Source: Sphingobium arseniciresistens (GTDB taxonomy: Bacteria > Pseudomonadota > Alphaproteobacteria > Sphingomonadales > Sphingomonadaceae). Taken from it: 64,000 bases of DNA. Below the pieces are notes generated by a model. The model saw only the letters and a list, made by a program, of their open reading frames with translations. It searched no databases and was not told where the DNA came from. The position numbers and the translations under genes were made by a program. Shown in pieces: positions 3,886 to 56,254 of the stretch. How positions within the stretch are numbered: the first letter of the stretch is position 1; every line of letters starts with the position of its first letter. Location: positions 47,184 to 111,183 of the forward strand of contig JARFNK010000018.1 of assembly GCA_029167225.1 (NCBI GenBank), given 5' to 3'.

Positions 3886-4314
3886 TTATCGCACCCGCAT
3901 CGTGCTCCGTGCGATCTTGCCGATGAGCGGGATCATTCCGGGATAGCTGGCTTTCCTGTAGGTCGAACGCATACCCAGTTCCGCCATGATCCGGCGGTGC
4001 GCTTCGCCAAGCGCATGATAGGGAAGGCTCGGCAGCAAATGATGCAGCGTATGATAGCGCAGACCGACCGGAGCCCAAATCGGAGCAAGCCGGTTCGGCG
4101 GGGGTACATTGACGGAATCCAGATATTGCTCCGTAAGGCTCATCGCCTCGCCGTCATTGTCCCAGAGATGCGCGACCAGCGTGCGCATCTGGTTGATGAC
4201 GGTGAAGCCGGCATGCACGAGCAGATATGTGACCAGTGGCCGCAGGCCGACCGCCGCCACGCTGGCCAAAAGGACCAGCGCCCCAAGCAGGACGAAAGCG
4301 ACGAATACGAAGCG
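3886..4314 (-). pseudogene. C-terminal fragment of fatty acid desaturase split by the ICE
   Basis: About 142 codons without an own start. They encode the end of a membrane fatty acid desaturase: a transmembrane stretch (VFVAFVLLGALVLL), a further conserved segment ending DNDGEAMSLTEQYLDS, and the third histidine box in LRYHTLHHLLP. Boxes 1 and 2 are missing here and are found in the fragment at 55559-56254. Upstream of codon CGC (4312-4314) the frame meets a stop at 4321-4323 within ICE sequence. Joining the two pieces at the shared GG gives one 374-codon frame. The separated piece should be non-functional. Confidence 0.88.
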
Positions 4315-4316
4315 CC
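4315..4316. other. attL crossover dinucleotide (CC on plus strand)
   Basis: Left edge of the ICE. To the left is desaturase sequence ending GAATACGAAGCG, and to the right is element sequence GCTTCTACTACG. The CC here and the CC at 55559-55560 occupy the same codon positions of the desaturase frame, so recombination across them restores the gene. Large serine recombinases use a 2-bp core, which fits. Confidence 0.75.
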
Positions 4317-4407
4317 GCTTCTACTACGTTAGGGCCGCACTTTTCCGCATTGCCCCGCCGTTTCCGGTCGCCATGCGCATTCGGGCGCTATGGCATAAGG
4401 CAGGCAG

Positions 4408-4987
4408 TCAGCGCAGCGCGCGATGGTGCGTCCAGCCTTGGTCGGTCAATATCAGGTCGTCGGCGTCTGTTGAAGGGGGGGGGGGGATCGCCGGCAGCGC
4501 GGCGGCGATGGCCGGATGGCTCGCCCAGGGCGCGACATCTTTGAGCGTGTAGCGGTAGGTGACGCGCGTCGCCTTCACCCCCGCTGCGTCAGTCGGCTCG
4601 GTGAAGTTCTCGACCGCCTTGATGTTGCGTCGAGCGTAGCAGAGGGTTCACGCCCCTGAGAAAGCGGTCCCCGTCCCGCACGGCATCCTTGGCGGCGTCG
4701 GTGGGATGGTAACGGACCCGATTGCCGGCAATCGGGTCGACCAAAAGCAGACCGGCAGCGACAGCGGCCTCCAACGCCGGCTTGTCCACCTGACGCGAAG
4801 CGGCGCGCTCGATCGGCAAGCTGCCGCTCCTGTCCAGCCGCACACACTCGGGATGCTCGTCGAACCAAGCCCGCAATGCCTCCTTGAAATTGGCGTCTGT
4901 GGCGGCCTTTGGATCACCAGCCACCTTCGGATTGTCGGCCGTCTTGGGACTGCCGCAAGCCGTCACCGCCAAAGCGGCCGCGAGCAT
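4408..4987 (-). pseudogene. Lipoprotein gene, frameshifted, with a 12-G tract
   Basis: The N terminus MLAAALAVTACGS is a lipoprotein signal with a VTAC lipobox. The protein family is not recognised. The frame is broken near 4645: one frame ends in GVNPLLRSTQ, while the next continues as LCYARRNIKAVENFTEP and then TYRYTLKDVAPW, so one base appears lost. Further on, a run of 12 G (4475-4486) puts the end out of frame. With 11 G it would end STDADDLILTDQGW and stop at 4408, and as written it stops at 4388. Upstream, a strong AAGGAGG is followed by an in-frame ATA (5006-5008) where an ATG would be expected. It lies downstream of the TonB receptor on the same strand. Confidence 0.6.
4475..4486. 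repeat. Homopolymer of 12 G
   Basis: Uninterrupted run of 12 G on the plus strand, inside the lipoprotein frame, where it encodes four prolines on the minus strand. Loss or gain of one G moves the last ~20 codons between two frames. Such tracts slip easily, in replication or in sequencing. Confidence 0.9.
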
Positions 4988-5083
4988 CGTTATCGCCTTA
5001 CGCTTTATCCCGTCCTCCTTTTGCGGAGCTTATGCTGCTGCCATTAAACGACCTTCTATCTCCAATGCGACCGTTTTCGGGCT

Positions 5084-5210: not shown

Positions 5211-7637
5211 TCACCAGGTCAAGCCAACCGAAAGCACGATGGTCCGCGGCTTAAGGGGTGTGAACTGCCGACCATTCATGATCGAGAACTGATTGCCGAA
5301 AGCAAAGCTGTCACCCTTCGTATCGAGCAGATTGTCGATCCGCGCGGCCAAGGTGATCGGCCCCTTCTTCAATGTCGATGCGATGAAAACCGTCGCATAG
5401 TCGCCCATCTGGCGGTCGAGGCTTCGCTCGAAACTGAGCCGCGCATGTCCGATATAATTGGCCTGGATGGTCAAGGCTGATGTCCATGCTCCAAAATCGA
5501 ATTCGCGGCGGATCGCGAGCCGTGCGGACAGATCGGGCACGACCGGCAGCCGACTGTCATCGACTTTCACCCCGTCCTGTGTTCTGATAAGACGCCCATT
5601 CTGAGCACTGATCCCGGCCGAAAGCAAGAAGCGAGGTCGAAAGCGCCAGTCTATGCTGGCCTCAATGCCGAAGATTTGGCCGTCGCCAACATTCCGCGTC
5701 GAGATGAGGCCATTGGACAGCAGATAGTCGGACTGAATGTGGTGCCAATCCGTATAATAAGCGCCCACTCCCACCGATAGCGGATCGTCCGGAAACCCGT
5801 GCCGCAGGCCGATTTCCGTCGATTCAAGCTGGTCGGATGCGAATGCCCTTTCGCTGCCCTTTTCCTGCGGAGCGAGACCACCGGGACGAACCGCGCGGGC
5901 GCGGCGGGCATAGGCAATGCCCTTATTCATTACGGTCCAGGATAGTGCCAGGCTGGGCGACAGGGTCGTCCGATCGATATGATGGGGACTTTCTCCCGAT
6001 GCTTCTTGCGCCTCATCCTCGGCGATCGTTCTGGAAAGGCGGGCACCGACCGTACCGCTGAGGTGATCGGCAATTCTGACAGTCGCTTCACCGAACAGCG
6101 AATATTCCTCAACCTTGCGATTCAAGTTCTCGACCGGAAGGCGTATGCCGACAGGGCTTTCGAGCACGGCCTCGCTGCGGGTTCGTGCTCTGAGCCAGGA
6201 AAAGCCCGCGACCCATTTCCCGCCCGTGACGGGCGACAGCCTGAACTCCTGGTTGACGACCTGATAGACGCGTTGATCGTGAAAACTCGCTGGCCCGGCC
6301 AGGCCGAAGCGGTCGGCCGCTGCACTGGCGTCAGACACATATCCGATCCGCTGATCCACATAGTTGGTTGCCGACAGTAGCCTGAGCGAACCTATCCGGG
6401 CGCTGATGGTGGAACTGACCGAACGAAGATCATTGTCGGATGTCTCGGGTGCGGCGGGGGGCTGGCGTCGCAACCCGAAGCCTGAACCTCTCACGTATTG
6501 GCTGTCAGCGACATTGATATTCTGCAAGAGCCCGGCCAGATCGACCGTCCATTCGTCGGACGGCCGCCAGCGTAGGGCAATCCGCGCCCCATCGGCCTTC
6601 GAACTGTTGGCGTTATGGTCTTGCCCGATATTGTCTATCCAGCCGGCGCCACGGATCACATAACCAACCGCGCGCAGCGCCAGCCGGTCACTGGCGAGCG
6701 GCAGGTTCAGCACCGCCTCGCCGCCTCCACCAAAACCGCCATGCTGGACCGCTTCGGTCAGGAAGCGCGCCATTCCTTCGTCCTTCCCGAGATCCGGCTT
6801 GCGCGTGACAATATGATATATCCCGCCCAGAGCACCGGAACCATAAAGAGGCCCTTGAGGCCCCTTGAGCAATTCGACCCGTTCGACATCGACGAGCCTG
6901 ATATCCGGATCGGGCGCATCGAAAGTTATGCGGGATTCGTCGATCTGGACCGCGACGGTCGACTGGCTGGGGCCATTGAACGGGCTGTCCGCGACACCCC
7001 GTATGAATTGACGATTACGCCCCGGGCCGAGATTGGTCAGGGCAAGACCTTCAACCGACCGGGCTATCTCACTCGCCCCTGCCGCGATCGTCGGAGAAGA
7101 ACGGTCGAGGTTCAACGCGGATATCGAAGCTGGAACGCTGAGCAGATCCTGTTCACGCTTTTGCCCGGTTACGACGATAACGACGGGCTCTGGTGCCTCA
7201 GGGGCCGCCTTTCGCGGCAAGGGCGCTGGTATCAGGGTGCGACGAGCCTGTTGCGGCTTTGCTGCGGGCTGCCTCTCGATCCGGTACGCCTGCGGCCCCA
7301 GTCGGACGGCGCGGAGCCAGCTTTCGGCCAGCAGGATGTTCAATGCCTCTTCGACGGTCATTTTCCCGTGGACGCGCGGCGTCCGGAGCGAGGGGATATC
7401 GCCTGCAAAGCCCAGCGACACGCCAGTCTCGATCGCAAGAACGCCCAGGCTTGTGCGCAGTTCGCCCTGCGGAATGTCGATCGGGAAGCGCTGCCCGGGG
7501 GCTGCGGCACAGCCTGCTGGAGACAGGACAATTTCAGCGACCGGGATTAGCACTAACGCGAACGCGAACGCCTTCGGTCTGGTAACGGATAGCCATGAAT
7601 TCCGAAAGCCGCGCCAGAAGTTGCGATCCGTCGCCAA
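5211..7637 (-). CDS. TonB-dependent receptor with N-terminal STN domain
   Basis: 808 residues, an outer-membrane receptor for energised uptake of a ligand, probably an iron chelate. After a hydrophobic signal region (AFAFALVLIPVAEI) comes a secretin/TonB short N-terminal domain (~50-115: FPIDIPQGELRTSLGVLAIE), typical of transducing receptors. A linker and TonB box region (VVIVVTGQKREQD), a plug domain (QFIRGVADSPFNG, ERVELLKGPQGPLYGSGALGG) and a long beta-barrel ending in VLSVGLTW complete it. The TTG start overlaps fecR by 104 bases. A later start is possible. fecI, fecR and this gene form one minus-strand cassette, so the receptor probably signals its own induction through FecR. The ligand cannot be read from sequence. 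Confidence 0.88.
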   Translation of the reverse strand: MATDRNFWRGFRNSWLSVTRPKAFAFALVLIPVAEIVLSPAGCAAAPGQRFPIDIPQGELRTSLGVLAIETGVSLGFAGDIPSLRTPRVHGKMTVEEALNILLAESWLRAVRLGPQAYRIERQPAAKPQQARRTLIPAPLPRKAAPEAPEPVVIVVTGQKREQDLLSVPASISALNLDRSSPTIAAGASEIARSVEGLALTNLGPGRNRQFIRGVADSPFNGPSQSTVAVQIDESRITFDAPDPDIRLVDVERVELLKGPQGPLYGSGALGGIYHIVTRKPDLGKDEGMARFLTEAVQHGGFGGGGEAVLNLPLASDRLALRAVGYVIRGAGWIDNIGQDHNANSSKADGARIALRWRPSDEWTVDLAGLLQNINVADSQYVRGSGFGLRRQPPAAPETSDNDLRSVSSTISARIGSLRLLSATNYVDQRIGYVSDASAAADRFGLAGPASFHDQRVYQVVNQEFRLSPVTGGKWVAGFSWLRARTRSEAVLESPVGIRLPVENLNRKVEEYSLFGEATVRIADHLSGTVGARLSRTIAEDEAQEASGESPHHIDRTTLSPSLALSWTVMNKGIAYARRARAVRPGGLAPQEKGSERAFASDQLESTEIGLRHGFPDDPLSVGVGAYYTDWHHIQSDYLLSNGLISTRNVGDGQIFGIEASIDWRFRPRFLLSAGISAQNGRLIRTQDGVKVDDSRLPVVPDLSARLAIRREFDFGAWTSALTIQANYIGHARLSFERSLDRQMGDYATVFIASTLKKGPITLAARIDNLLDTKGDSFAFGNQFSIMNGRQFTPLKPRTIVLSVGLTW

Positions 7638-8493
7638 TGATCAATATCCCTGAAAAACGCATGTCCCTGACGGACGGATCGACGATGATCTCCTGGCCTG
7701 AATAGCGCGAAATATCCGAAAGGACGACAGTCAACGGTGTGTGGTCATAGCTGAGCCGGCCCTGACGCCAGCTTCCCACATCTTCGGGAGCAAGCGGCGC
7801 TATATCGAGCACATCGCCCTGCCTCCTGGCCAACAACTGCTGGCCAGCTGAAAGCGTGACGGGGGTTCTCCCACCGTCACGGGTGATCGAGACATGCCCC
7901 TCCGACACCCTTACCAGCAAAGCATCGCCGGTCAGATTGATCGCAAACCGCGTCCCGATGTCTGCCACGGTGTAGTCGCCCGCATGAATCGACAGCGTTC
8001 GATGAGGATCGTGAAAGACTGAAAAAAAGGCCTCGCCGCGCACGAGTTCGAGATTGTCGGAGTGGCGGCCCTTGACACGAAGCTGGCTTGCCGGCGCCAG
8101 ATCGACGGTCGCGCCATTGGCAAGGGCAAAGGTATGCTTCTCGCCATAGGTTGTGGTGTAGCGTTCTTCCTCAAAATAGCGGTTGAAAAGCGGTATGCCG
8201 ACAGCGAGCGCTACAGCCGCCGCTGCCGCTGCCCCCTGCAGGAAGCTGCGCCGGAGCAACTTTCGGGAATGACGGGCGGGCCGCTGTGCTGTGATCAGGC
8301 GGACAAGCGCACCCTTGTGTTCCTCGATGATACGGTCGGTCAGCGCAACCGTGTTGGACGCCTCGCGATGGCGGGGATCCGCCTGCAGCCAGAGAACATA
8401 GGCATCCCAGTCGGCATCGTCGCTCTCTAGCGCGCGATGCCAGGCAAGGGCCTCCGCCAGAAGCCGATCATCGATCTCCGACCTTGCCGTCAT
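7534..8493 (-). CDS. fecR: FecR-family anti-sigma/sigma regulator
   Basis: 319 residues. It has an N-terminal cytoplasmic DUF4880-type region (LLAEALAWHRALESDDADWD, WLQADPRHREA) that would bind the ECF sigma factor, one membrane helix (~90-108: AAAAVALAVGIPLF), a periplasmic FecR domain (TTTYGEKHTFALANGATVDL, ADIGTRFAINLTG) and a C-terminal domain (SYDHTPLTVVLSDISRYSG) that contacts the receptor's STN domain. It sits between the sigma factor and the TonB receptor in the standard order. Confidence 0.9.
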   Translation of the reverse strand: MTARSEIDDRLLAEALAWHRALESDDADWDAYVLWLQADPRHREASNTVALTDRIIEEHKGALVRLITAQRPARHSRKLLRRSFLQGAAAAAAVALAVGIPLFNRYFEEERYTTTYGEKHTFALANGATVDLAPASQLRVKGRHSDNLELVRGEAFFSVFHDPHRTLSIHAGDYTVADIGTRFAINLTGDALLVRVSEGHVSITRDGGRTPVTLSAGQQLLARRQGDVLDIAPLAPEDVGSWRQGRLSYDHTPLTVVLSDISRYSGQEIIVDPSVRDMRFSGILIIGDGSQLLARLSEFMAIRYQTEGVRVRVSANPGR

Positions 8494-8564
8494 GGCGAGT
8501 GGCTTTCCTCACTTTGCGTCTGATGGCGCTAGACTGCATCCGACGACACCGGTGTAATTTTCCC

Positions 8565-9092
8565 TCAGTCCAGCAACGCACGGCGCAGATATTTCATTGC
8601 GACGGCGATGTGCTTTTCAACGCCGCTGATTGAAATCCCCAGCCGCTCCGCCACTTCGGCCTGGCTGAGGCCATCGAGCTTGTGCAGTTCGAGGGCGCGG
8701 CGGGCGCCTTGGGGTATGGTCGTCAGGGCCGAAGCAAGCAAAGCGAGTTCCTCGCGTTCGAGTAACTGATGCTCGGCATTTCCGGTTCGATCGGCAGGCT
8801 CGCCGCCGGGTTGCAAATGATCGTCCTGATGGTCGGACCAGCCCCGATCCCGGCGCATCCTGCGGTGATTCTCGCGCAGCCGGTCGACAACCAGATTTTT
8901 GGCCATTCGATAAAGATAGGGACGTGGATTGGCGACCGGTCCTCCCGCAGGCTTGCGGAGGCGAACCCACATTTCCTGAAGGATGTCTTGCGCTTCCGCG
9001 CGATTTCCCGTTTGCGCCACAACAAAGCGAAGCAGTTCGGGACGGTACGCGTGGAACAGCGCTTCCAGGCCTTGGCATTCCTCCGGCTTCAT
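8565..9092 (-). CDS. fecI: ECF RNA polymerase sigma factor, FecI type
   Basis: 175 residues. The sigma-2 region is at ~10-75 (YRPELLRFVVAQTGNRAEAQ, ILQEMWVRLR, YLYRMAKNLVVDRLR) and sigma-4 with helix-turn-helix at ~115-170 (LDGLSQAEVAERLGISISG). AGGAGG lies 5 bases before the ATG, a strong ribosome site. It is expected to transcribe the downstream receptor gene when released by FecR. A 71-base gap separates it from fecR. Confidence 0.92.
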   Translation of the reverse strand: MKPEECQGLEALFHAYRPELLRFVVAQTGNRAEAQDILQEMWVRLRKPAGGPVANPRPYLYRMAKNLVVDRLRENHRRMRRDRGWSDHQDDHLQPGGEPADRTGNAEHQLLEREELALLASALTTIPQGARRALELHKLDGLSQAEVAERLGISISGVEKHIAVAMKYLRRALLD

Positions 9093-9513
9093 GGTCCTCC
9101 TGCCTAGAAAGACTTGCTGACAAAACCCTGACGGAGTTGCCGGAGATGGGGATGACGGGTTCGCAGACCCGCTTGATCACCGTTGTTTCCATCCGCACGA
9201 GAAGCGCGCAAGCGCGAGCAGGAGGGGCACCGCCGGACCTCTTCAATGCCGCGCCTGTCGCGCATGCGGACACGCACGACGGCATAGGGCATATGGTCGG
9301 GTAAACAGGCGTAATTCCCAAGGGCATTGCGGTATGACGTAGACTGTCTGCATAAACCTCAGTTCATGTCATCACATTTTCGTGTTTCTAAATCACTGAT
9401 GGGGATCTGGGATCGAATGCCGTCCTGACGCAAAGCCAGGCACTCCACCGGATCGTCTGACCACGCCGTTGCGGACGCTCGCGAACGCCGGGGGCGAACA
9501 GGGGAGTGGGCAA
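9093..9513. other. Intergenic region without supported gene
   Basis: Holds the promoter region of fecI and the downstream end of the DsbD-like gene. Short frames on both strands are proline/arginine-rich and lack homology that I recognise. No clear hairpin with T-run was found. Confidence 0.4.
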
Positions 9514-11541
9514 TCAGGATCCGCGGGTTTTCGGCAGGGCCTCCAGCATGCCGGGCGTCAGGATCTGCGGCAGTTCCTCCGGCGCGCCATGCGGCGGATA
9601 CCAGAAATAGGCTGGAACGCCGGCCTTGCCATTGGCTTTCAGGAAAGCGGTGATGGCCGCGTCACCATTGGTCCAGTCACCGCGCATCAAGGTCACGCCG
9701 GCCCGGTCAAATGCGGCGCGAACCGCAGCGGCATTGAGGCTCGTGACTTCATTGACCTTGCAGGTCAGGCACCAGTCGGCCGTCAGGTAAAGGAATACCG
9801 GCTTGCCCTGGTGCCGCAAGCTGGCCAGCCTTTCCGTTGAAAAGGTTTCTGCATGTTCGTCTTTGGCCTTGGCGGAAACTGTGGGTGTCGGTGCGGCGAC
9901 CGCAGGCACGGCCAGAGCGACGGCCACTGTGCCCAGCAGCGCCGTGGCCGAGGGCCACACATGTTTGCCGGAATGCTGGCGAAGGCCGTGCCACCACAAG
10001 CCGAGGCAAAGCATCAGCGCAAGGGCCAGCGCAACCGTCATGCCGGCGACACCCTGCTGGTGCCCGATGACCCATGCGAGGCCAAGCGCCGTCACGAACA
10101 TCGGCAGGCTGAGGATACGACGCAAGGTCACCATCCATGCACCCGGTCGCGGGAGCCAGGCACGGGCCCGGTGCGAAAAGCCGATCAGCAGGAAGGGCGA
10201 GGCGATCCCTAGCCCCAGACCGAGAAAGATCGCCAGCGCCTGTAAAGCGGGCAGGACCATGGCTGCACCCAGTGCACCGGCCATGAAAGGTCCAGTGCAG
10301 GGCGTGGCGATGAACGCCGCGAGCGCGCCTGTGCCTGCCGCACCCCAGAAGCCTCCTTTCCCGCCGCCCGCCACCCGCAATGAGGGAAGTTCGAACAGGC
10401 CGGCCAGATTGACGGCGATCGCCGTGACCAAAAGCAGCAGCAGCAGCAGGACCCGCCGATCCTGGAGCTGGAAGGCCCAGCCGACGCTGTGCCCAAGCCC
10501 GCGCAGCACGACAAGGGCCAGCCCGAGGGCGAGAATGACGCCGACCGCGCCCAGCGTGTAGCCGAGCGCCTCCCGGCGCGCTTCCTGATCGTCGCCGCCT
10601 GAACGGGCGAGCGCCAGCGCCTTGAGGCTGAGGATCGGAAAGACGCAGGGCATCAGGTTCAGGAACAGCCCGCCGAGAAATGCGGTGCCGATGATCAGCG
10701 CAAGGGAAACAGCACCGGCCGGTGTCGGCGTCGCGGCATCGGGCAATGGTCCATGCGCTGCGGCGAACTGCCAGGCCTTCACGCTGCCTTGCGGTCCGTC
10801 GATGCGCAGGATCAGCGTCAACCGGCCCGGGAGCATCGCCTGCCCCTTGGACAAGTCGACAAACAGGCCGCCTTCCCCCTGCGTAAACGACTGGCCAGCC
10901 GCCTCGTCAATAACCTGCGGGACCGGGCTGAACAGCAGCGCCCGCTCCCCCGCGGCCAGCAGCACACCGGGCAGGAACACGCGCAGATGCTGCCCCGCCG
11001 GGGCAAAGAGCGCGCCGGCGCGACCTTCACGCGGCATAGCCGCCTGCGCCTCAGCGAAAATGGGCCCCGTGGCGCTGTCGGGGGCATTGTCCCCCTCTGG
11101 CAGGGTCAGCGCGAAGTCCAGCGGATCAGGAACGCAGGTGCTGGCCGAGCAGACCAGCAGATCGAGCGTCCCCTTGAGGCGCACAGCCCCCGAAGGCCCG
11201 GTCAGCGATTGGAGCAGGATCGTGCGACCTTCGTGGACGTTGCTGGAGTAGCCGCCGAGCACCAGCCGTTTGGGCGCGGGATGGCGCAGCCCGCCCGCCT
11301 GCCAATAACCGGGCAGGTTCCAGCTGATCGCGGGCTGGTAGCCGGTATCGCCCGGATTGACCCAATAGATGTGCCAGCCTGCGTCGGGATGGATGACATA
11401 GGCGATATCTACCCGCTTGCCGGCGGCATGGCTTGCACTCCTGCTCGCGACGAGCAGCGAATAATGCTGCGCGCGCAGCGTTTGCGCCTCTGCGGGAAAG
11501 GCAGCAAAGAGCGCCAGGATCAGGAGAAGCACTCGGTTCAT
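9514..11541 (-). CDS. DsbD-type thiol:disulfide interchange protein
   Basis: 675 residues. A signal peptide (1-19) precedes a periplasmic N-terminal domain with a cysteine pair (Cys131, Cys136 in VCSASTCVP). Next comes an eight-helix DsbD/CcdA core with the conserved cysteines in NLMPCVFPILSLKAL and ATPCTGPFM. A C-terminal thioredoxin domain carries WCLTC (Cys591, Cys594). This moves electrons from cytoplasmic thioredoxin to periplasmic proteins. The N-terminal layout is that of the ScsB/DsbD-like group rather than classical E. coli DsbD. It lies 30 bases after apbE in an operon with DUF3570, DUF4266 and a TlpA-like protein, and probably keeps that system reduced. Confidence 0.9.
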   Translation of the reverse strand: MNRVLLLILALFAAFPAEAQTLRAQHYSLLVASRSASHAAGKRVDIAYVIHPDAGWHIYWVNPGDTGYQPAISWNLPGYWQAGGLRHPAPKRLVLGGYSSNVHEGRTILLQSLTGPSGAVRLKGTLDLLVCSASTCVPDPLDFALTLPEGDNAPDSATGPIFAEAQAAMPREGRAGALFAPAGQHLRVFLPGVLLAAGERALLFSPVPQVIDEAAGQSFTQGEGGLFVDLSKGQAMLPGRLTLILRIDGPQGSVKAWQFAAAHGPLPDAATPTPAGAVSLALIIGTAFLGGLFLNLMPCVFPILSLKALALARSGGDDQEARREALGYTLGAVGVILALGLALVVLRGLGHSVGWAFQLQDRRVLLLLLLLVTAIAVNLAGLFELPSLRVAGGGKGGFWGAAGTGALAAFIATPCTGPFMAGALGAAMVLPALQALAIFLGLGLGIASPFLLIGFSHRARAWLPRPGAWMVTLRRILSLPMFVTALGLAWVIGHQQGVAGMTVALALALMLCLGLWWHGLRQHSGKHVWPSATALLGTVAVALAVPAVAAPTPTVSAKAKDEHAETFSTERLASLRHQGKPVFLYLTADWCLTCKVNEVTSLNAAAVRAAFDRAGVTLMRGDWTNGDAAITAFLKANGKAGVPAYFWYPPHGAPEELPQILTPGMLEALPKTRGS

Positions 11542-11571
11542 TGTGGCACCGTTGGCATGTTCGAGAGGATT

Positions 11572-12432
11572 TCAGCGGACCAGCCAGGACACGGTGCGTT
11601 CGCGCTCGAGAAAGGCTTCGGCCCGTTCTCCATGCAGCATGGCGAGCGTGGACATGATACCTGCTTCCAGACAGGTGGCGGCGGCGATCGTGACCGAATG
11701 CGGCGGGTTCGTGACCGGCCAGCCCGTCCGGGGATCGAGTATGTGGCTATAGCGGACGCCATCCCTGAGAAGGAAGCGCCGGGCGTCCCCGCTGGTGGTC
11801 AGTGCGCCGCCGCGCAGTTCCAGCATGGCGGGTTTTTCGTCGCCATCCCGGACTGCCTCGATCGCTATGAGCCATGGCTCGCCATCGCGCCGCGGACCGC
11901 TCACCCGCAGGTCGCCGCCGAAATTGACCAGCACTGGCAGGTCGGTGTGCGCCGCCAGCATCAGGGCGACGCGATCGACGGCATATTCCTTGCCCAGACC
12001 GCCAAGGTCGATTTCCATGCCTTCGCGAAGGCGGACAAGGTCGGCTGAAAGCTCAACCTTGTCCCAGCCGATCAGGGGCATGACCGCCGCGACGGCGTCC
12101 GGGGCGGGTACCTTGTCCGAACCGTCGAATTTCCAGACCCGCCGCAGCACCCCGGAGGTGACGTCGAACAGCCCGTCCGACAGCCGCCAGCACTGATCGG
12201 CATAGTGCAGCAAGCCATGGGTTTCCGAATCGATCGGCACCGGCCGGCCCGCGTCTGCGTTGACCCGGCTCAGCAGGCTGTCAGCGCGATAGCGGCTGTA
12301 TTTCCGCTCGATCCGGGCGACTTCTTCCTCTGCCAGCCTGCCCAGCAGCGCCAAAAGCTCGCCCTGCGCGCCCTGGACCTTGACCTCGCAGGGCGAGCCG
12401 AGCGCGGAAAAATGGTAGCTCTCTTTGGTCAT
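11572..12432 (-). CDS. apbE: FAD:protein FMN transferase ApbE
   Basis: 286 residues. ApbE attaches FMN from FAD to a Ser/Thr of extracytoplasmic proteins. Family features seen are GLFDVTSGVLRRVWKF, GMEIDLGGLGKEYAVDR, VNFGGDLRVSG, ALTTSGDARR and the metal-binding HILDPRTGWPV. The ATG at 12432 is preceded by AAGGAA. A longer start at 12513 would overlap the DUF3570 stop by 4 bases. No clear signal peptide is visible from 12432, so export or the longer start should be considered. Its likely substrate is the neighbouring DUF3570 protein, which contains DSLTGAT. Confidence 0.92.
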   Translation of the reverse strand: MTKESYHFSALGSPCEVKVQGAQGELLALLGRLAEEEVARIERKYSRYRADSLLSRVNADAGRPVPIDSETHGLLHYADQCWRLSDGLFDVTSGVLRRVWKFDGSDKVPAPDAVAAVMPLIGWDKVELSADLVRLREGMEIDLGGLGKEYAVDRVALMLAAHTDLPVLVNFGGDLRVSGPRRDGEPWLIAIEAVRDGDEKPAMLELRGGALTTSGDARRFLLRDGVRYSHILDPRTGWPVTNPPHSVTIAAATCLEAGIMSTLAMLHGERAEAFLERERTVSWLVR

Positions 12433-12509
12433 CCGTTCCTTGCGCGGCCTCGCACGCGGCATGGTGCCGGGATGGAGAGGGGCAACGGCATCCATTCCGG
12501 CACCATAGC

Positions 12510-13901
12510 TCACAGCTTGAACTTCACGCCAAGCATGAGATTGAAGGCATCCGCGCCCGCATAGAGATCGAAGCTCGAGAGCGCCCCCGGCCGTATGCCA
12601 TAGCTGCCGGTCTTGCTGCTGCGATAGAGGTCGCCGTTCACATAGATTTCGAGGCCGGGCCGGAGTTCATATCCAGCCCTGGCGCCGAAGGTCCAGGCGC
12701 TGAAGCCGTCGAGCCGGCTGTCGGCGCTCGCATGGTTGGGCAGCGGTTGTCCTGCATCCAGAAAGTATGTGAAGAAATCCGCCCTTGTCTGCCGGTAGTA
12801 GCGCACGCGCGGCTCGATATAGGCCTTGCGGCCGATCGGCACATGCTCCGAGCCCTCGACAGTGAACGAATCGATGCCCCAGCTGTCATGATAGTAGCGC
12901 GCAGAGAGATCGGTCACGAACGATCCCAGCGCCAGCTTGGTGGCACCGTACACCGCATGGCGCGTGCGACTGTCGGGGCGCGATTCATACAGATACTGCA
13001 AGGGTGCGCCCGTTAATCCATCGACCACCGAAAGGATTTTGTAGGGATCGGTTTGATAGCCGTTGCCCGAGGTGAAGCTGTAGTTGAGCTGCACCAGCCA
13101 GTTCGGACGCAGGATCTGCGTCACGCCCGCCATGGCGGTGATGACGGTCCTATTATCGCTCTTGTTTGTGGGAACACCGCTCATCGGCGTGAAGGCGAGC
13201 GGAATGCCGTGGAACGGATCTATTTTATCATATTCGAAATTGGCGCCAAGCGAGAGCGTGGTCGCGCCACCGTTCAATTCCCTGGCAATCGATGCGCGGC
13301 CGGAGAAGGAATAGAAGTCCTGTTCCACCGATCCGTTCAATCCCAGGTTGAGCTTTGTCCCCGATGCAACGGAAAAGCCATAGCCGAGATCGAGAGCGAC
13401 GCGATGGTCGCGAAAGGCCTTGTCGAGGGGCAGCTTTCCTGGATCCACAGTGTAGATGCGTTCTAGCCTGCCCGTCACGGGGTTAGGCACGACCGTACCG
13501 GACGAGCCGGTGGAGGAATGTTCTCCCTTGATTGGGGAAACGAAGCTTTGCGTCCCGGTCCAGGGTGTCGCTCCGTTGGGCGTGGCGCCGGTCAGGCTGT
13601 CGAAGGTCAGCTTGGCTGACCAACTATTCCCATTTTGGTTCGTATGCACCACCGATACCATGGGCTCGATAGCCTGAACGCGCCCGCCATTCTCCTTGTA
13701 GTAAAGAACCGCGCTGTCGATGCTGGTAGTATCCAGTTCATCCAGCGGCTGATCGTAGACATTGGTGATTTCAGGCGCACGCTGACCCGTGCCGCTTTCC
13801 TCTCCGGTCTGGGCCATGGCGGCTGTCGCGCCGAGAAGATTGACGGTCAGCAGACAGAGTGCCGCCCCGATCCTTGCTGGTCCTTGCCGGTTCAGTTGCA
13901 T
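12510..13901 (-). CDS. DUF3570 outer-membrane-like protein with candidate flavinylation motif
   Basis: 463 residues. The signal peptide is cleaved after ATAAMA. The rest is rich in alternating beta strands and ends in a hydrophobic strand (AFNLMLGVKFKL), suggesting an outer-membrane barrel. DUF3570 proteins have no settled function. Residues 101-107 (DSLTGAT, bases 13581-13601) fit the ApbE target consensus D-x-x-[ST]-G-A-[TS], with Thr104 or Thr107 to be tested as the acceptor. ApbE is encoded immediately downstream and a DUF4266 lipoprotein upstream. Inference: a flavinylated surface redox protein. Confidence 0.85.
   Translation of the reverse strand: MQLNRQGPARIGAALCLLTVNLLGATAAMAQTGEESGTGQRAPEITNVYDQPLDELDTTSIDSAVLYYKENGGRVQAIEPMVSVVHTNQNGNSWSAKLTFDSLTGATPNGATPWTGTQSFVSPIKGEHSSTGSSGTVVPNPVTGRLERIYTVDPGKLPLDKAFRDHRVALDLGYGFSVASGTKLNLGLNGSVEQDFYSFSGRASIARELNGGATTLSLGANFEYDKIDPFHGIPLAFTPMSGVPTNKSDNRTVITAMAGVTQILRPNWLVQLNYSFTSGNGYQTDPYKILSVVDGLTGAPLQYLYESRPDSRTRHAVYGATKLALGSFVTDLSARYYHDSWGIDSFTVEGSEHVPIGRKAYIEPRVRYYRQTRADFFTYFLDAGQPLPNHASADSRLDGFSAWTFGARAGYELRPGLEIYVNGDLYRSSKTGSYGIRPGALSSFDLYAGADAFNLMLGVKFKL
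13581..13601 (-). other. Candidate FMN attachment motif DSLTGAT in DUF3570
   Basis: Seven codons giving D-S-L-T-G-A-T, matching the known ApbE recognition pattern. The motif sits near the start of the mature barrel domain, next to PNGAT. Confidence 0.6.
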
Positions 13902-46943: not shown

Positions 46944-46965
46944 TATATCCGTTAATCTGGATATA
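46944..46965. promoter_or_regulatory. ArsR operator overlapping the arsR start codon
   Basis: Arms TATATCC (46944-46950) and GGATATA (46959-46965) with an 8-base spacer. The last base is the A of the arsR ATG. Such placement gives direct autorepression released by arsenite. Confidence 0.7.
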
Positions 46966-47297: not shown

Positions 47298-47308
47298 TGG
47301 AGACCGCC

Positions 47309-47839
47309 ATGTCCGCCGATCGCGTGTTCAACGTCCTGTTCCTCTGCACCGGCAATTCGGCGCGTTCGATCCTCGCGGAAAGCGCCATGAACAAACTGGG
47401 TGCAGGCCGCTTCCGGGCGTTCTCGGCCGGCAGCTATCCCAGGGGGGCGGTCAATCCCGATGCGCTCGCGCTGCTGGAACGGATCGACTATCCGACCGAG
47501 GGGCTGCGCTCGAAAAGCTGGGAGGAGTTTTCCCGGCCCGGTGCGCCGCAAATGGATTTCGTGTTCACCGTCTGCGACGACGCGGCCGGTGAAGTCTGCC
47601 CGATATGGCCGGGCCATCCAATGACCGCGCATTGGGGCATCGAAGATCCAAGCCATGTCGAAGGAACGTGGGTAGAGCGCGAGCGCGCCTTCGTGACGGC
47701 GCTACGCTATCTAGAAAACCGCATCCGGCTGTTCATTGCGCTGCCGATCGACAAGCTCGAAGCCACGGCGCTGACCGCAAAGCTGCGCGAGATCGGTCAT
47801 GCCGAAGGCTCGACCGCTCGTCGGGGAGACGCTGCGTGA
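47309..47839 (+). CDS. arsC: Arsenate reductase, LMW-phosphatase type
   Basis: 176 residues. The phosphatase loop C-x5-R is FLCTGNSARSI (Cys13, Arg19) and the acid loop is at IEDPSHV. The larger size and insertion FTVCDDAAGEVCPIWPGHP are typical of proteobacterial ArsC of this fold. The start at 47309 is preferred because ATGGAG lies 7 bases ahead. An ATG at 47297 also overlaps the arsR stop. Confidence 0.9.
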   Translation: MSADRVFNVLFLCTGNSARSILAESAMNKLGAGRFRAFSAGSYPRGAVNPDALALLERIDYPTEGLRSKSWEEFSRPGAPQMDFVFTVCDDAAGEVCPIWPGHPMTAHWGIEDPSHVEGTWVERERAFVTALRYLENRIRLFIALPIDKLEATALTAKLREIGHAEGSTARRGDAA

Positions 47840-48261
47840 CCGACATTATCATCTATCACAATCCGGAGTGCGGCACGTCGCGCAACGTGCTGGGCCTGAT
47901 CCGCAACGCCGGGATTGAACCGCACGTGATCGAATATCTGAAAATCCCGCCATCGCATGCCTTGCTGGTCCAACTCATCGCACGCGCCGGCATTACGCCG
48001 CGCGAGTTGCTGCGCGAGAAGGGCACACCCTATGCCGAGCTGGGTTTGGACAATCCGTCACTGTCCGACGAAGCCCTGATCGACGCGATGATGGCGCATC
48101 CGATCCTTATCAACCGGCCGCTGGTCGTCTCGCCATTGGGGGTGAAGCTGTGCCGGCCCTCAGAGGCGGTGCTGGACCTGCTGCCCGCGTCGCAACAGGG
48201 CGCCTTCGCCAAGGAGGACGGCCAGCAGGTTGTTAATGCGACCGGCGCGCGGGTGATCTGA
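47836..48261 (+). CDS. arsC: Arsenate reductase, glutaredoxin type
   Basis: 141 residues, GTG start overlapping the previous stop. Active Cys12 in YHNPECGTSRNVL and Arg94 in NRPLVVSPLG match the E. coli R773-type ArsC that uses glutathione and glutaredoxin. A second, unrelated arsenate reductase in the same operon gives two electron sources for the same reaction. Confidence 0.93.
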   Translation: MTDIIIYHNPECGTSRNVLGLIRNAGIEPHVIEYLKIPPSHALLVQLIARAGITPRELLREKGTPYAELGLDNPSLSDEALIDAMMAHPILINRPLVVSPLGVKLCRPSEAVLDLLPASQQGAFAKEDGQQVVNATGARVI

Positions 48262-48264
48262 GGC

Positions 48265-49341
48265 ATGACGACCGTTTCCGCCGCCGGCACCGCGCCGGCC
48301 CGTCCCGGCATCTCTTTCTTCGAGCGGTATCTGAGCCTGTGGGTGGTGCTCTGCATTGTCGCGGGTATCGCGCTAGGCCATGCGCTGCCCGGCCTGTTCG
48401 GCGTCATCGCCTCGGCCGAAGTGGCGCGCGTCAATCTCGTGGTCGCGGTCCTGATCTGGCTGATGATCGTGCCGATGCTGCTCAAGATCGACTTCGGCGC
48501 ACTCGGAAGTGTCCGACAACACTGGAAGGGCGTCGGCGTCACCCTGTTCATCAACTGGGCGGTCAAGCCCTTCTCGATGGCGCTGCTCGGCACGTTGTTC
48601 CTTGGGTATCTGTTCGCCCCGCTACTGCCGGCGGGCGAAGCCTCGTCCTATATTGCCGGCCTGATCCTGCTCGCCGCCGCGCCCTGCACCGCGATGGTGT
48701 TCGTCTGGTCGAACCTGTGCGACGGCGAACCCAATTTCACGCTGAGTCAGGTGGCGCTCAACGACCTCATCATGGTGTTCGCCTTCGCGCCGCTGGTCGG
48801 CCTGCTGCTCGGCGTAGCATCGGTCACGGTGCCGTGGGACACGCTGCTGGTCTCGGTCGGTCTCTATATCGTCGTGCCAGTGGTCGTCGCGCAACTCCTC
48901 CGGCGCTTCGTGCTGGCATCGGGCGGACAGGCAGCGCTCGACCGGCTACTGAGGCGTCTTAGCCCGGTGTCGCTGTTCTCCCTGCTGGCGACGCTGGTGC
49001 TGCTGTTCGGCTTCCAGGGCGAGGCGATCGTCGCGCAACCTCTGGTGATTGCGCTCATCGCCGTGCCGATCCTGGTGCAGGTCTATTTCAACGCCGGGCT
49101 GGCCTACTGGTTGAGCCGCCGGTTCGGTGTCGCGTGGTGCGTGGCTGCACCCGCCGCGCTGATCGGTGCCTCCAATTTCTTCGAGCTGGCGGTGGCCGCC
49201 GCGATCTCGCTGTTCGGGCTCAAGTCCGGCGCTGCGCTCGCCACCGTAGTCGGCGTGCTGGTCGAGGTGCCGGTAATGCTCTCGGTGGTGGCGATCGTGA
49301 AGCGGACGCGCGGCTGGTATGAGAAGGGGGCGATGGCTTGA
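48265..49341 (+). CDS. acr3: Arsenite efflux permease ACR3
   Basis: 358 residues with ten hydrophobic segments. Conserved Cys in [20 protein letters not shown] and Glu in [18 protein letters not shown]. It exports As(III) produced by the two reductases. ACR3, not ArsB, as shown by these motifs. Confidence 0.95.
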
Positions 49342-50102
49342 CCCGTATCCGACATCTGCTTGCCCCGGATCATCTGCCCGCGCTCGATCTCCGCTATGCC
49401 GGCGAACGGCCCGCACAGGGCCTTGGTGCGGGCGATCCGCCGCCGCGTATCCTGCTACTCTATGGTTCCTTACGCGAGCGGTCCTTCTCGCGCTTCGCGG
49501 TCGAGGAAGCCGCCCGCCTGCTCCAGTTCTTCGGGGCGGAGACACGCATCTTCGATCCGTCCGACCTGCCTTTGCCCGACCAGGTGAAGGGCGACGATCA
49601 TCCCGCCGTCCATGAGCTGCGCGACCATGCGCTATGGTCGGAAGGCATGGTGTGGTGCAGCCCCGAGCGGCATGGGGCCATTACCAGCATCATGAAGGTG
49701 CAGATCGACCATCTGCCGCTGGAGATGAAGGGGATGCGGCCGACCCAGGGCCGCACCCTTGCGGTCATGCAGGTGTCGGGTGGTTCGCAATCGTTCAACG
49801 CGGTGAACGCGCTACGCCTGCTTGGTCGCTGGATGCGGATGTTCACCATCCCCAACCAGTCGAGCGTGGCGATGGCCTACAAGGAGTTCGACGACGCCGG
49901 ACGCATGAAGCCGTCCAGCTACTATGACCGGATCGTCGATGTGATGGAGGAGCTGGTGCGCTTCACCGTGCTGCTGCGCCCGCACGCCGCGCAGCTCGTG
50001 GACCGCTATTCCGAACGCAAGGCTGCCCAGATCATCGTGAACCCATCCCATGATCTCGCCCACATCGCAGTATGTAACACTGATGAACACGTCGCCTGTT
50101 AG
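49338..50102 (+). CDS. arsH: ArsH NADPH-dependent FMN oxidoreductase
   Basis: 254 residues, TTG start overlapping the acr3 stop. Flavodoxin-like fold with [20 protein letters not shown] (FMN phosphate loop), [20 protein letters not shown] and [20 protein letters not shown]. ArsH oxidises methylarsenite and other trivalent organoarsenicals. Last gene of the ars operon. Confidence 0.95.
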
Positions 50103-52614: not shown

Positions 52615-52944
52615 ATCTCAAATCCTTGGGCCTAAAGGTCAGCGAAGCGGTGTGCCGCGCCTGACCTTCTGGCCGTCGCCGAGACTAGGGTAGCAACGGG
52701 CAAGGGCGGCCAGGGCGGAGGGGGATCACCCGGCCTGCACAAGCGAAGCGCGGAAGGCTGGGGATGCCGCCCTGGACGGTTCCACTTACCTTGCCCGGCG
52801 CGGGGGCAACGCCCTTAGCAACTGCCCCGCACCGCTCGCGGCGCGGGAAGAAGGACAGCGAGTGCGCTCGCTTCGTCGCTATTCGGGTTGCTTTGAAACG
52901 CATTTTTGATTAGTTTATAATCAATCTGATTTGAGGTGATCTTC
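52615..52944. other. Intergenic region, AT-rich toward the antitoxin
   Basis: No gene seen. From 52900 the sequence becomes AT-rich (TTTGATTAGTTTATAATCAA), probably the promoter and autoregulatory site of the toxin-antitoxin pair. TTGATTA..TAATCAA forms an imperfect palindrome. Confidence 0.45.
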
Positions 52945-53214
52945 ATGGCGACTGATACGAAAGTCCTGACCGCGCATGTCCCCCTCGGGCTTGCGGACAA
53001 GGTGGATGCGATGGCCGCGCGGCTCGAACGCTCGCGCGGCTGGGTGATGAAACAGGCGCTCGCCGCCTGGGTCGATCTGGAGGAAGAACGCCACCGGATG
53101 ACGCTGGAAGCCCTGGCCGATGTGGATGCGGGGCGCGTGATCGACCATCAGGCGATCCTGGCGTGGGCCGACAGCCTTGGAACGGACAAGCCGCTGCCCT
53201 CGCCCGTCAAATGA
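52945..53214 (+). CDS. Ribbon-helix-helix antitoxin (ParD-like)
   Basis: 89 residues. RHH fold TKVLTAHVPLGLADKVDAMA then LERSRGWVMKQALAAWVDLE, followed by an acidic tail that would wrap the toxin. The ATG at 52945 has GAGGTG upstream. It overlaps the toxin by 4 bases, as is usual for type II pairs. Confidence 0.85.
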   Translation: MATDTKVLTAHVPLGLADKVDAMAARLERSRGWVMKQALAAWVDLEEERHRMTLEALADVDAGRVIDHQAILAWADSLGTDKPLPSPVK

Positions 53215-53504
53215 GAATCCAGTGGACCAGCAAGGCGTCCTCGGACCTTGTGCGCTTGCACGACCATCTGAGCCCGATCGCGCCCGACGCGGCGGCGCGT
53301 GTGGTCCAGCAGCTCGCCCATGCGCCCGATCGGCTGCTCGACTATCCCAGGATCGGCGAGAAGCTGGAAGCCTATGAGCCGCGCGAGGTCCGGCGGATCA
53401 TCGTGGGCGACTACGAGATGCGTTACGAGATCGCGTCCGCAACCATCTTCATCCTGCGCCTCTGGCATTGCCGCGAGAACCGCAACTTCGATTCGGAGGA
53501 CTAA
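53211..53504 (+). CDS. RelE/ParE-family toxin
   Basis: 97 residues. RelE/ParE fold: IQWTSKASSDLVRLHDHLSP, VVQQLAHAPDRLLDYPRIGE and the C-terminal strands VGDYEMRYEIA and FILRLWHCRENR. ParE members poison gyrase, but mode of action is not decided by sequence alone. The pair adjoins the recombinase and would kill cells that lose the element. Confidence 0.88.
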   Translation: MRIQWTSKASSDLVRLHDHLSPIAPDAAARVVQQLAHAPDRLLDYPRIGEKLEAYEPREVRRIIVGDYEMRYEIASATIFILRLWHCRENRNFDSED

Positions 53505-53629
53505 GGGGCGATGGCACAAGCGGGCATGATCGGCGGCGAGAGGCAGCACGGTGCCGCCGCAGGCACTTATCTCTACTACGCCACAATACGCCATTTGCGC
53601 CGATTGCCGCCGCGCGCCAGCGTTGGTGC

Positions 53630-53878
53630 ATGGCTCTGCCTCGCAAACGTCGCTTCCGTGCGCCCCGTCACTGGTCGGAAGGTCTCGAAGACCTGCACGA
53701 CTATATGCAGCCGCAGCCGCAACGGCGCGCGCCGGCCCGATCCCGAACATCCGATGATGGGGCGATCGTCGTCACCGACGACTGGCCCGAGCAGGTTCCC
53801 ATCGGCGACGCCGAGTTGCGTGTCATCGAAGGCCATCTACGCGAGGAACTGGACGCGCTGTTCGGTCCCTTGCCATGA
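53630..53878 (+). CDS. Small acidic protein next to the recombinase
   Basis: 82 residues. A basic start (MALPRKRRFRAPRHWSEG) and an acidic end (VIEGHLREELDALFGPLP). It lies 18 bases before the recombinase. Similar short proteins precede this recombinase in related elements, suggesting a cofactor such as a recombination directionality factor, but that is inference. Confidence 0.6.
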   Translation: MALPRKRRFRAPRHWSEGLEDLHDYMQPQPQRRAPARSRTSDDGAIVVTDDWPEQVPIGDAELRVIEGHLREELDALFGPLP

Positions 53879-53896
53879 AATAAGGAGTGAAGCGTC

Positions 53897-55564
53897 ATGA
53901 CCAGCGCCGCCCTGCAACGACTAGAGGATGGGGTGCCGGTCGTGGCGACGGCCCGCGCCGCGCTCTACCTGCGGGTTTCGACCCCGCGCCAGGCCGACCA
54001 TGATCTGTCGATCCCCGACCAGCGCCGCCAGCTTGAGGGCTATTGCCTCTCGCAAGGCTGGGAGGTCGCGGCCGAGTTCGTCGAGCCGGGCGTCTCGGGC
54101 ACCGATGATCGTCGTCCCGCTTTCCAGGACATGATCGACGCGGCGCTGGAGAAGCCTCCCGCGTTCGATGTGGTCGTCGTCCATAGCTTCTCGCGTTTCT
54201 TCCGCGATCAGTTCCAGTTCGAGTTCTATGTCCGCAAGCTGGCGAAAAATGGCGTGCAGCTCGTCTCCATCACGCAGATTCTCGGCGATGATCCGGCGGG
54301 CGAGATGATGCGGAGGATCATGACGCTGTTCGACGAATATCAGTCGAAGGAAACCGCCAAGCATACGCTGCGCGCGATGAACGAAAACGCCCGCCAGGGC
54401 TTCTGGAATGGCGCCCGCCCGCCGATCGGCTACCGCGTGGTCGAGGCCGAACAGCGCGGCACGAAGATCAAGAAGAAGCTGGAAATCGACCCGATCCATG
54501 CCGAGACGGTGCGCCGGATTTTCCGCCTGGCGCTGGAGGGCGCCGATGGACGCGGGCCGATGGGCGTCATGGCGATCGCGTGCTGGCTCAATGAGAATAA
54601 TATCCGCACCCGTTACGGCGGGCGCTGGGGCAAGGGTATGGTGCATCAGGTGCTGACGCGGACGACCTATATCGGCCAGCACCGCTTCAACACCTATGAT
54701 GTCAAGAAAGGGCGTCGAAAGCCCGAGGAAGAGCACGCCATCATGGAGGCGCCGCCAATCGTCACGGTGCCGGAGTTCGAGGCCGTGCAGCGGTCCTTGA
54801 AGGCGCGCAGCCCCAAGATGATGCCGCCGCGCGCGGTGGGCGGATCGACACTCCTGACCGGGATTTGCTTCTGCGCCTGCTGCGGTGGCGCGATGACGCT
54901 GCGCACCGGCACCAGCCGGAGCGGACAGGAATATCGCTATTATACCTGCGCGACCAAGGCCACGAAGGGAAAGACGGGCTGTCCCGGCGTGTCGCTTCCG
55001 ATGGACCAGTTGAACAAGGCGGTGATCGAGCATCTGGAGACACGGCTGCTCGATCCCGCGCGGCTTGAAGTGATGATGGAGCAGCTTATCGACCGGCGGG
55101 AAGAATGGGTGACGGAGCGCCGCCAGCATGTCGCCGAGATGGAACGGCGTGCGACGGAGGCCGACACCAAGCTCTCCCGGCTGTATGAGGCGATCGAGAA
55201 CGGACTGGTGGATATGGGCGATCCGTCGCTCAAGGCGCGGATCGCGGAGCTAACCACCATTCGCGATCAGGCCAGAGGCGACGCCGAGCGCGCGGTTGCG
55301 CACATCGAGCGGATCAGCCCGGAGATTACGGTCGAGAGCCTTCACGCCTTCGCGTTGGCCGCCAAGCGCAAGCTCCGCCACGATGACGGCACCTATGCGC
55401 GAAACCATGTGCGGGCGGTGGCCCAGCGGGTCGAAGTCCATAGCAAGACTGACGTGCGAATCCTCGGCACGCGCACCGAGTTGCTGCGGACCCTCACCGC
55501 CGCCTCTGGCGTAGAGGCGGCGGTGCTAGGGACTCGCGGTTTTGGACCGAAATGGTGCCCATAG
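53897..55564 (+). CDS. Large serine recombinase, ICE integrase
   Basis: 555 residues. The resolvase domain has catalytic Ser28 in ALYLRVSTPRQADHDL. The recombinase domain (~175-290) includes GFWNGARPPIGYRVV and LNENNIRTRYGGRWGKG. A zinc ribbon (CFCACCGGAM, later YYTCATKA and TGCPG, ~330-375) and a coiled coil (~395-480) follow. Its last codon and TAG stop straddle the right junction: CCA at 55559-55561, TAG at 55562-55564. In the excised circle the frame would run on as PLLLR before stopping. This is the most likely enzyme of integration and excision. Confidence 0.93.
   Translation: MTSAALQRLEDGVPVVATARAALYLRVSTPRQADHDLSIPDQRRQLEGYCLSQGWEVAAEFVEPGVSGTDDRRPAFQDMIDAALEKPPAFDVVVVHSFSRFFRDQFQFEFYVRKLAKNGVQLVSITQILGDDPAGEMMRRIMTLFDEYQSKETAKHTLRAMNENARQGFWNGARPPIGYRVVEAEQRGTKIKKKLEIDPIHAETVRRIFRLALEGADGRGPMGVMAIACWLNENNIRTRYGGRWGKGMVHQVLTRTTYIGQHRFNTYDVKKGRRKPEEEHAIMEAPPIVTVPEFEAVQRSLKARSPKMMPPRAVGGSTLLTGICFCACCGGAMTLRTGTSRSGQEYRYYTCATKATKGKTGCPGVSLPMDQLNKAVIEHLETRLLDPARLEVMMEQLIDRREEWVTERRQHVAEMERRATEADTKLSRLYEAIENGLVDMGDPSLKARIAELTTIRDQARGDAERAVAHIERISPEITVESLHAFALAAKRKLRHDDGTYARNHVRAVAQRVEVHSKTDVRILGTRTELLRTLTAASGVEAAVLGTRGFGPKWCP
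55559..55560. other. attR crossover dinucleotide (CC on plus strand)
   Basis: Right edge of the ICE, in the last sense codon of the recombinase. Element sequence ends GAAATGGTGC and the desaturase continues ATAGACAGGCG. A joined attP would read GGTGC-CC-GCTTC and the rebuilt attB GAAGCG-CC-ATAGAC. Confidence 0.75.
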
Positions 55565-56254
55565 ACAGGCGCAGACTTCCTGCACGAGCCATTGCCGCCT
55601 GAGAACATCCTCGGGCGCATGGCGACGGTAGGCCGGATTGATGGCGAGCGCGGAATATCGCTCGCGCACATATGTCCTCAGCGACGGCAGGATCAATCCC
55701 AGCGGGGTGAACACCGCGAAGCGGACAAGGAGAGCAAGCGGCACAAGCGCGGCGCCGAGCACGAACAGGGGCAGCGACCAGGGCTTCATCGCCGCCAGGG
55801 GCAGATATTCGGGATCTCCGGCGGTCCCATAGCGCGTACGCGCATGATGCTGGGTGTGAACGCCTTCATACAGGAAGGATGGGATCAACAGGGGCACGCC
55901 GACCAGAGCATTCCAAGCGAAGCGGAAACCCGGCAACGCGCCTTCGCGCAGATGGCTGAGCTCATGGATGAAGCTCGCAGCCCGATAGAGCGCCAATACA
56001 GCGACGATACCGCAGAGCAATGCCGGCACGAGACCCTCGAGCAGGACGGCGCCCGCGAGCGCGCCATAGCCGACCGCCGCTGACAGCAGGAGATCGCGCC
56101 AGTAAATGGCCGCCTGCGGCTTCGAGAGATCGCGCGCAACCCTGGCAGCGACGCGGAGCATGCGTATATCCTCCGCGGAGCCGGCCCGGGCGGTAACGGC
56201 CGGCGCAGGATTTCCAGGGGTGCTCGACCATGCCCGGTCGGTCATTGCCTTCAT
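55559..56254 (-). pseudogene. N-terminal fragment of fatty acid desaturase split by the ICE
   Basis: Codons 1-232 of a membrane fatty acid desaturase. Histidine box 1 is SFIHELSHLREG and box 2 is YEGVHTQHHARTRYG, with membrane helices around 55-90 and 160-190. Box 3, needed for the di-iron centre, is on the fragment at 3886-4314. Past Trp232 the frame reads into the recombinase gene and ends after about ten foreign codons. Substrate position is not predictable. The gene is inactivated by the element. Confidence 0.9.

Follow-up and report, generated by a model that had tools for sequence, protein, structure and literature searches.

A tRNA-targeting integrative and conjugative element that probably entered a secondary site in a second desaturase gene of Sphingobium arseniciresistens

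In the 6.6-Mb draft genome of Sphingobium arseniciresistens, a fatty acid desaturase gene lies in two parts at the edges of a 51-kb element with its own large serine recombinase, and the question raised by this locus is whether the desaturase gene is the site that the element normally uses or one that it entered by exception. The stretch analysed (hereafter the window) comprises 64,000 nucleotides of contig JARFNK010000018.1 (positions 47,184 to 111,183), which is part of contig C31 in our numbering. By its predicted gene content the element is an integrative and conjugative element (ICE), with a relaxase, a coupling protein, a VirB4-type ATPase (TrbE) and the recombinase all lying within the recombination ends at 4280 and 55558. 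A preliminary description of the locus had taken the desaturase gene for the element's own site. Four features can be read in the sequences compared: the two ends of the element, the joint as corrected here, the location of its relatives at tRNA genes and an empty tRNA-Leu(CAG) gene. From these we consider it very probable that a tRNA-targeting ICE used a degenerate secondary site here, one inside a second desaturase gene.

Element boundaries and the joint in the desaturase gene

The two desaturase parts match PF00487 (FA_desaturase) separately, over profile positions 8-143 for the N-terminal part and 139-245 for the C-terminal part, and they flank the RlxS-like relaxase, Trb, TraG and RPA genes, in agreement with the preliminary description, in which one ICE splits one desaturase gene. 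The His boxes HELSH, HTQHH and HTLHH are all visible in the joined translation, in the parts to which they had been assigned, and the serine recombinase does lie at the edge of the element. The features at the two ends are as follows.

3886-4281, minus strand: desaturase C-terminal part with His box 3, host DNA ending at the GC core at 4280-4281 (PF00487 in 3886-4314; gap-free joint)
4280-4281, no strand: putative attL, one of two copies of the central dinucleotide GC (start of the conserved block, preceded by TGGT, in 12/12 relatives)
4282-4332, plus strand: element left arm, which would complete the recombinase reading frame in the circle (tail PKQDESDEYEAPLLLR; 14/14 distinct arms)
53897-55564, plus strand: large serine recombinase, 555 residues as integrated (PF00239 Resolvase, PF07508 Recombinase, PF13408 Zn_ribbon_recom)
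55557-55558, no strand: putative attR, second copy of the GC core, after the TGGT mimic of a tRNA 3' end at 55553-55556 (sequence and right-end census)
55559-56254, minus strand: desaturase N-terminal part with His boxes 1 and 2, up to the crossover (PF00487 in the open reading frame 55526-56254; alignment of 20 homologues)

The left end was defined from relatives. When 15 genomes were searched with window positions 4280-5060, 12 other copies of the left arm, all matching from the first base of the query, were found in seven genomes, besides some short inner matches; when the query was moved back to 4000 the match still started at 4280 in 12/12 copies. Directly before this start, all 12 relatives have TGGT, the displaced end of a tRNA (the contig of locus L141 holds just those four bases), whereas the window has host sequence (ccagc). 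Because this block is kept, starting at 4280 and following TGGT in every copy, positions 4280-4316 belong to the element's own left arm. The tetranucleotide GCCC is common to both ends (4280-4283 and 55557-55560), the element measures 51,277 bp, and the crossover lies within this GCCC, most likely at GC. Other pairs of ends would point to GC as the core, provided that the two ends of a pair come from a single element and that all members of the family share one core: genome G489 has TGGT-GC at its left end and TGGC-GC at its right end, both on one contig, and in G496 and G502, again with the ends of a pair on one contig, GC is followed by C at the left end and by G at the right end.

Joining the sequence at 4281/4282 to that at 55559/55560 rebuilds a desaturase of 363 codons that is gap-free around the joint against 20/20 intact homologues (from 19 other genomes of the genus, plus the paralogue of the same genome). 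The preliminary description had removed 4317-55560 instead, joining the parts across a shared GG. That operation does yield an in-frame open reading frame of 374 residues, the two ends do agree with a single recombination event and the gene can indeed be restored in frame, but with 363 codons; the 11 extra residues of the longer version (RFVFVAFVLLG) are present in none of the 20 intact homologues, which lack continuity across the GG joint. Both joints give an open frame because their products are 33 nt apart in length, and the 374-codon frame is an accident of this in-frame difference. The GG joint at 4316/55561 is ruled out by the start of the left arm at 4280, the preceding TGGT and the homologue alignment. 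This correction serves as a warning that an open frame over a proposed joint is no proof of the joint.

Near the left end of the element we also noticed a run of 12 G (4475-4486).

Target sites of the recombinase family

In the recombinase, PF00239, PF07508 and PF13408 all score above their cut-offs, and its relatives in the PDB are SPbeta YokA, the TP901-1 integrase and TnpX. We collected 110 recombinase loci from the same genome, a search of 397 genomes of the host's family (best places) and a scan of contigs: the window's own locus (L001), 29 others from the 397-genome search and 80 of 101 relatives. The term recombinase family denotes here similarity only, its members being 56-100% identical to the recombinase of the window. 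Removal of 19 identical right ends left 91 distinct ones, the window included, which comprise 73 full tRNA genes (ARAGORN), 12 tRNA pieces (T-arm motif only), two contig ends and four ends without tRNA (the window, L062, L106 and L112, the recombinase ends of L106 and L112 aligning unlike the others). A tRNA gene or piece is therefore found at 85 of 91 right ends, across many alphaproteobacterial genera. The recombinase gene mostly runs into the tRNA 3' end, with the sequence ..AAATGG(T/C)GC or a close variant, in which TGG is the complement of CCA.

The tRNA species varies with the identity to the recombinase of the window. At 80% identity or more, 10/10 other readable ends are tRNA-Leu, tRNA-Thr or tRNA-Arg genes (four tRNA-Leu(CAG), three tRNA-Thr(CGT) and single cases of tRNA-Thr(TGT), tRNA-Leu(CAA) and tRNA-Arg(CCG)); at 60-80% all fully recognised tRNAs are Arg, and below 60% Asn (2) and Ser (3) tRNAs are found in addition to Arg. 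The closest relatives, with a recombinase about 94-95% identical, end at tRNA-Leu(CAG) and tRNA-Thr(CGT).

There is no tRNA gene in the window, where the recombinase gene ends inside the desaturase gene and not at a tRNA 3' end; its attP still holds a mimic of a tRNA 3' end (TGGNGC), namely TGGTGCC at 55553-55559. No desaturase match was found in the flanks fetched (up to 8 kb) from the other 109 recombinase loci, and this result, together with the census of right ends at tRNA genes, rules out the desaturase gene as the site of the family and speaks against the proposal that it is the site of this element.

The GC core is palindromic. The orientation of integration is set, in serine integrases, by the central dinucleotide. 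Among the 91 right ends, the inverse orientation could be hidden in at most four; this uniformity could reflect selection against loss of tRNA function.

Several further observations concern the distribution of the family. At L062 (positions 9657-10385, Sphingomonas laterariae) the right end without tRNA (TGGCGCACTCTGACGAAG...) may represent a second off-target insertion, its flank holding an open reading frame whose product resembles a small mobilisation protein. In two genomes left arms follow one another over 23-32 kb, every one preceded by TGGT (G291, contig C1, 2859631, 2882832 and 2891362; G484, contig C55, 24949 and 47563), a pattern suggestive of tandem accretion of such elements at a single tRNA. 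A 60%-identical recombinase adjoins trbG/trbI genes on the IncR plasmid pCAV1668-85 of Enterobacter hormaechei (L209, NZ_CP011583.1), and the family extends, with this member, beyond the alphaproteobacteria into a gammaproteobacterium.

The desaturase gene as a secondary site

The genome of S. arseniciresistens has 43 tRNA genes (Rfam RF00005); the 3' ends of all 43 were read, and a recombinase end adjoins none of them. The tRNA-Leu(CAG) gene (C1:529229-529312) reads TGGTGCCCAGAAGAGGACTCGAACC, the site used by L056, L103, L129 and L027, and is empty. Since this gene is intact and has no recombinase end, the element is off its usual site, although that site is now free. Because the relatives end at tRNA genes and this tRNA-Leu(CAG) is empty, the element has probably used the desaturase gene as a secondary site. 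The split gene is a second copy, an intact paralogue being present at C48:46296-47330 (contig C48 of the same genome, 69% identical), and its loss is on that account probably tolerated by the host; a desaturase match was obtained in 94/94 genomes of the genus searched, this one included.

The resemblance of the desaturase site to tRNA genes was assessed with a position matrix built from 10 close tRNA halves and applied to GC sites of the host DNA on either side of the element in the window. With 22 positions, the half of the desaturase site that faces the recombinase ranks 9th among 2871 such sites, and with 24 positions 25th among 2869 (24 sites scoring higher), whereas the other half ranks only 2444th of 2871 with the 22-position matrix. 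Since the first half ranks high and the other low, the site appears to have been used in the tRNA orientation, on a weak resemblance, and the ranks support a degenerate secondary site and not a hotspot.

We propose that a recombinase whose family normally integrates at tRNA 3' ends acted on the desaturase site instead. At its usual target, the attP mimic TGGT-GC-C would restore the acceptor end of the tRNA. In the desaturase gene, crossover at GC would have joined attP to a GC whose recombinase-side half is weakly like a tRNA acceptor and T-arm, and the gene would be split because no tRNA end was available there to be restored. Excision at the same GC would give back the 363-codon desaturase. 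We infer that a single recombinase-mediated step produced the insertion and that the recombinase may still be active.

Several results weigh against this interpretation. The 24-nt score of the desaturase half (-3.2) is far under that of the lowest of the 10 training tRNA halves (16.2), and a matrix from 85 halves drawn from the whole set puts 118 of 2869 sites above the desaturase site; with such weak likeness to a tRNA, many sites in a genome of 6.6 Mb should outscore it. The genome assembly is in draft form, in 120 contigs, and its contamination is estimated at 6.02%. Moreover, neither an uninterrupted copy of the split gene nor an empty site was found in any sister genome searched, and the intact identical gene that the preliminary description would lead one to expect in related genomes did not appear in those searched: among 94 genomes of the genus the best match is the 69% paralogue, the other genomes listed reaching at most 67%, and among 397 genomes of the family (E <= 1e-140) nothing exceeds 66%, short matches of related proteins aside. 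When the left flank joined to the desaturase was searched (at most four candidates scored per genome), each match listed from other genomes was confined to one of two regions, OsmC-MarR (65-72%) or desaturase (71-81%). In a search of distant plasmids, no record matched the right flank over as much as 80% of its length. The empty site is thus a putative one, deduced by comparison with homologues and from the ends of the element itself rather than seen in a sister genome.

Three other explanations were weighed, and all of them seem improbable. Specificity may have switched recently from tRNA to desaturase, through changes in the recombinase of this lineage. Targets do vary with recombinase identity, as described above, but a recombinase about 94-95% identical to those of tRNA-Leu(CAG) users, acting on a half-site that still leans to the tRNA halves, makes a switch very unlikely, and a single event cannot demonstrate one. 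We give marginally less credence to the desaturase gene being, with the corrected joint, the dedicated primary attB of the element. The insertion is clean and single, the gene is restored in frame and the orientation relative to the recombinase is the same as at tRNA sites; nevertheless, the fetched flanks of the other 109 loci are free of desaturase, recombinases about 94-95% identical sit at tRNA-Leu(CAG) and tRNA-Thr(CGT), and attP has kept its mimic of a tRNA end. That the gene was broken by deletion, transposition or misassembly, the element ending there by chance, is given as little weight, the draft state and contamination estimate of the assembly notwithstanding, as both breaks fall exactly at element ends defined independently from relatives, share the core and restore the protein without a gap at the joint.

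Recombinase tail, gene content and comparison with known systems

As integrated, the recombinase ends in KWCP, its TAG stop (55562-55564) being provided by desaturase DNA of the host flank. In the predicted circle it would read KWC-PKQDESDEYEAPLLLR-stop, with a tail of 16 residues and a TAG stop at 4330-4332. Beyond the close group, a pattern search for left arms gave a match in 3/37 genomes, one of which was previously known; when the upstream stretches of four further elements were considered, an arm was found for G505 and G508 and none for G516, while for G493 such a stretch is nonexistent. The tail frame is open, with its stop at the same codon, in 14/14 distinct arms, the 76-78% group included, of which two (G505 and G508) came from a search that itself demanded an open frame. 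The synonymous share of the tail is 0.186, against 0.152 in column shuffles, a value reached in 113 of 500 and not significant; in an earlier count on 10 distinct arms, the coding frame had 102 synonymous and 162 non-synonymous changes, its synonymous count being above those of the other two frames. Because the codon test is not significant, we regard it as likely, and no more, that the recombinase reading frame crosses attP and that the tail exists solely in the circle, where it may matter for recombinase activity.

The remaining features of the element, assigned from profile matches except where indicated, are listed below.

5211-17589, no strand: cargo with TonB receptor/FecR/ECF sigma, DsbD-like, ApbE, DUF3570, thioredoxin-like, cytochrome b561 and VIT-type transporter
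17823-25302, plus strand: cargo with a two-component system and an RND efflux system (HlyD-type, AcrB-type, OEP)
26844-36107, minus strand: conjugation genes for TrbI, CagX/TrbG, VirB8/TrbF, TrbL, TrbK-like, TrbE, VirB3-like and TrbB (Pfam/NCBIfam)
39586-41664, minus strand: coupling protein TraG/VirD4 (PF02534, NF010450)
41582-43342, minus strand: RlxS-like relaxase (DUF3363; PF11843, PF03432)
43581-46808, minus strand: SLT transglycosylase, S26 peptidase (TraF-like), DUF2840 and replication initiator RPA
46965-50102, plus strand: arsenic cargo with ArsR-type helix-turn-helix, low-molecular-weight phosphatase-like, ArsC, Acr3 and ArsH
52936-53504, plus strand: RHH protein (52936-53214) and ParE-like toxin (53163-53504) (PF01402, PF05016)
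53468-53900, plus strand: region of a candidate small open reading frame overlapping the recombinase start (tblastn, 129-residue frame)

Against the RlxS model NF041267 the relaxase scores 537 bits, under the cut-off of 850, and RovC_DNA-bd proteins are also present in the element. Within 9514-14678, the run of DsbD-like, ApbE, DUF3570 and thioredoxin-like genes adjoins the TonB/FecR/sigma set and resembles one redox or metal-handling unit. The 129-residue frame of the region at 53468-53900 has a tblastn match at most 60 nt upstream of the recombinase in 62/111 loci; no Pfam match was found in either frame considered, and the region is a candidate for a directionality factor or regulator.

Taken by itself, the split desaturase is an ordinary secondary-site insertion. 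The recombinase family behind it matters more, since 85 of 91 right ends lie at tRNA genes or pieces, a habit of serine recombinases that Ghinet et al. (2011) term rare (PMC3218068). A wider reading, which we put forward tentatively and hold somewhat less probable than its opposite, is that this family, widespread and chiefly alphaproteobacterial, reads tRNA genes as a class, with a tail-switching integrase and the desaturase as an off-target. Recognition would then proceed through the acceptor end and T-arm of Arg, Leu and Thr isoacceptors, and of Asn and Ser as well in members below 60% identity, each attP mimicking the 3' end of its own target tRNA; with a palindromic core, orientation would come from the half-sites or from selection for a living tRNA; the change of C-terminal tail on integration would be a built-in sensor of the integrated versus the circular state; and the desaturase insertion would be a natural off-target product revealing which half-site is read. 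If true, the family would provide a set of serine integrases aimed at sites where the target gene is restored, a naturally occurring GC core on which the control of orientation could be studied, and an integrase with a tail that may depend on the integrated state.

Alphaproteobacterial ICEs of the ICEMlSymR7A type are marked by an RlxS-like relaxase, Trb mating genes, RPA/DUF2840 and RovC_DNA-bd, and ICEMlSymR7A uses a tyrosine integrase. The element of the window shares these traits and differs by its large serine recombinase. The Myxococcus phage Mx8 has a tRNA as its target. As proposed for the element described here, its attP lies inside the integrase gene, and integration gives int a new 3' end (PMC6070905, PMC4383910, PMC4701971), but Mx8 has a tyrosine integrase, of which 112 residues are replaced by 13 on integration (PMC4701971), compared with the 16-residue tail proposed here. 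The streptococcal rumA ICEs resemble the present element in having one large serine integrase, with att within the integrase gene and a different C terminus coded by the excised form (PMC4701971); unlike the present family, their primary site is a protein gene, rumA, and not a tRNA, and they carry Firmicutes conjugation modules. Four elements with serine integrases are also described there as occupying secondary sites inside protein genes of streptococci (PMC4701971). Among the matches listed for serine recombinases and tRNA genes, no title or opening part of an abstract describes the present family. By target, it resembles the eight Mycobacterium recombinases of AICEs (actinobacterial ICEs) found at one tRNA-Leu gene, as well as the Ralstonia filamentous phage phiRSM1 in tRNA-Ser (Ghinet et al., 2011; PMC3218068), all of them serine recombinases at tRNA genes, whose carriers, unlike the ICE described here, are actinobacterial AICEs or a filamentous phage.

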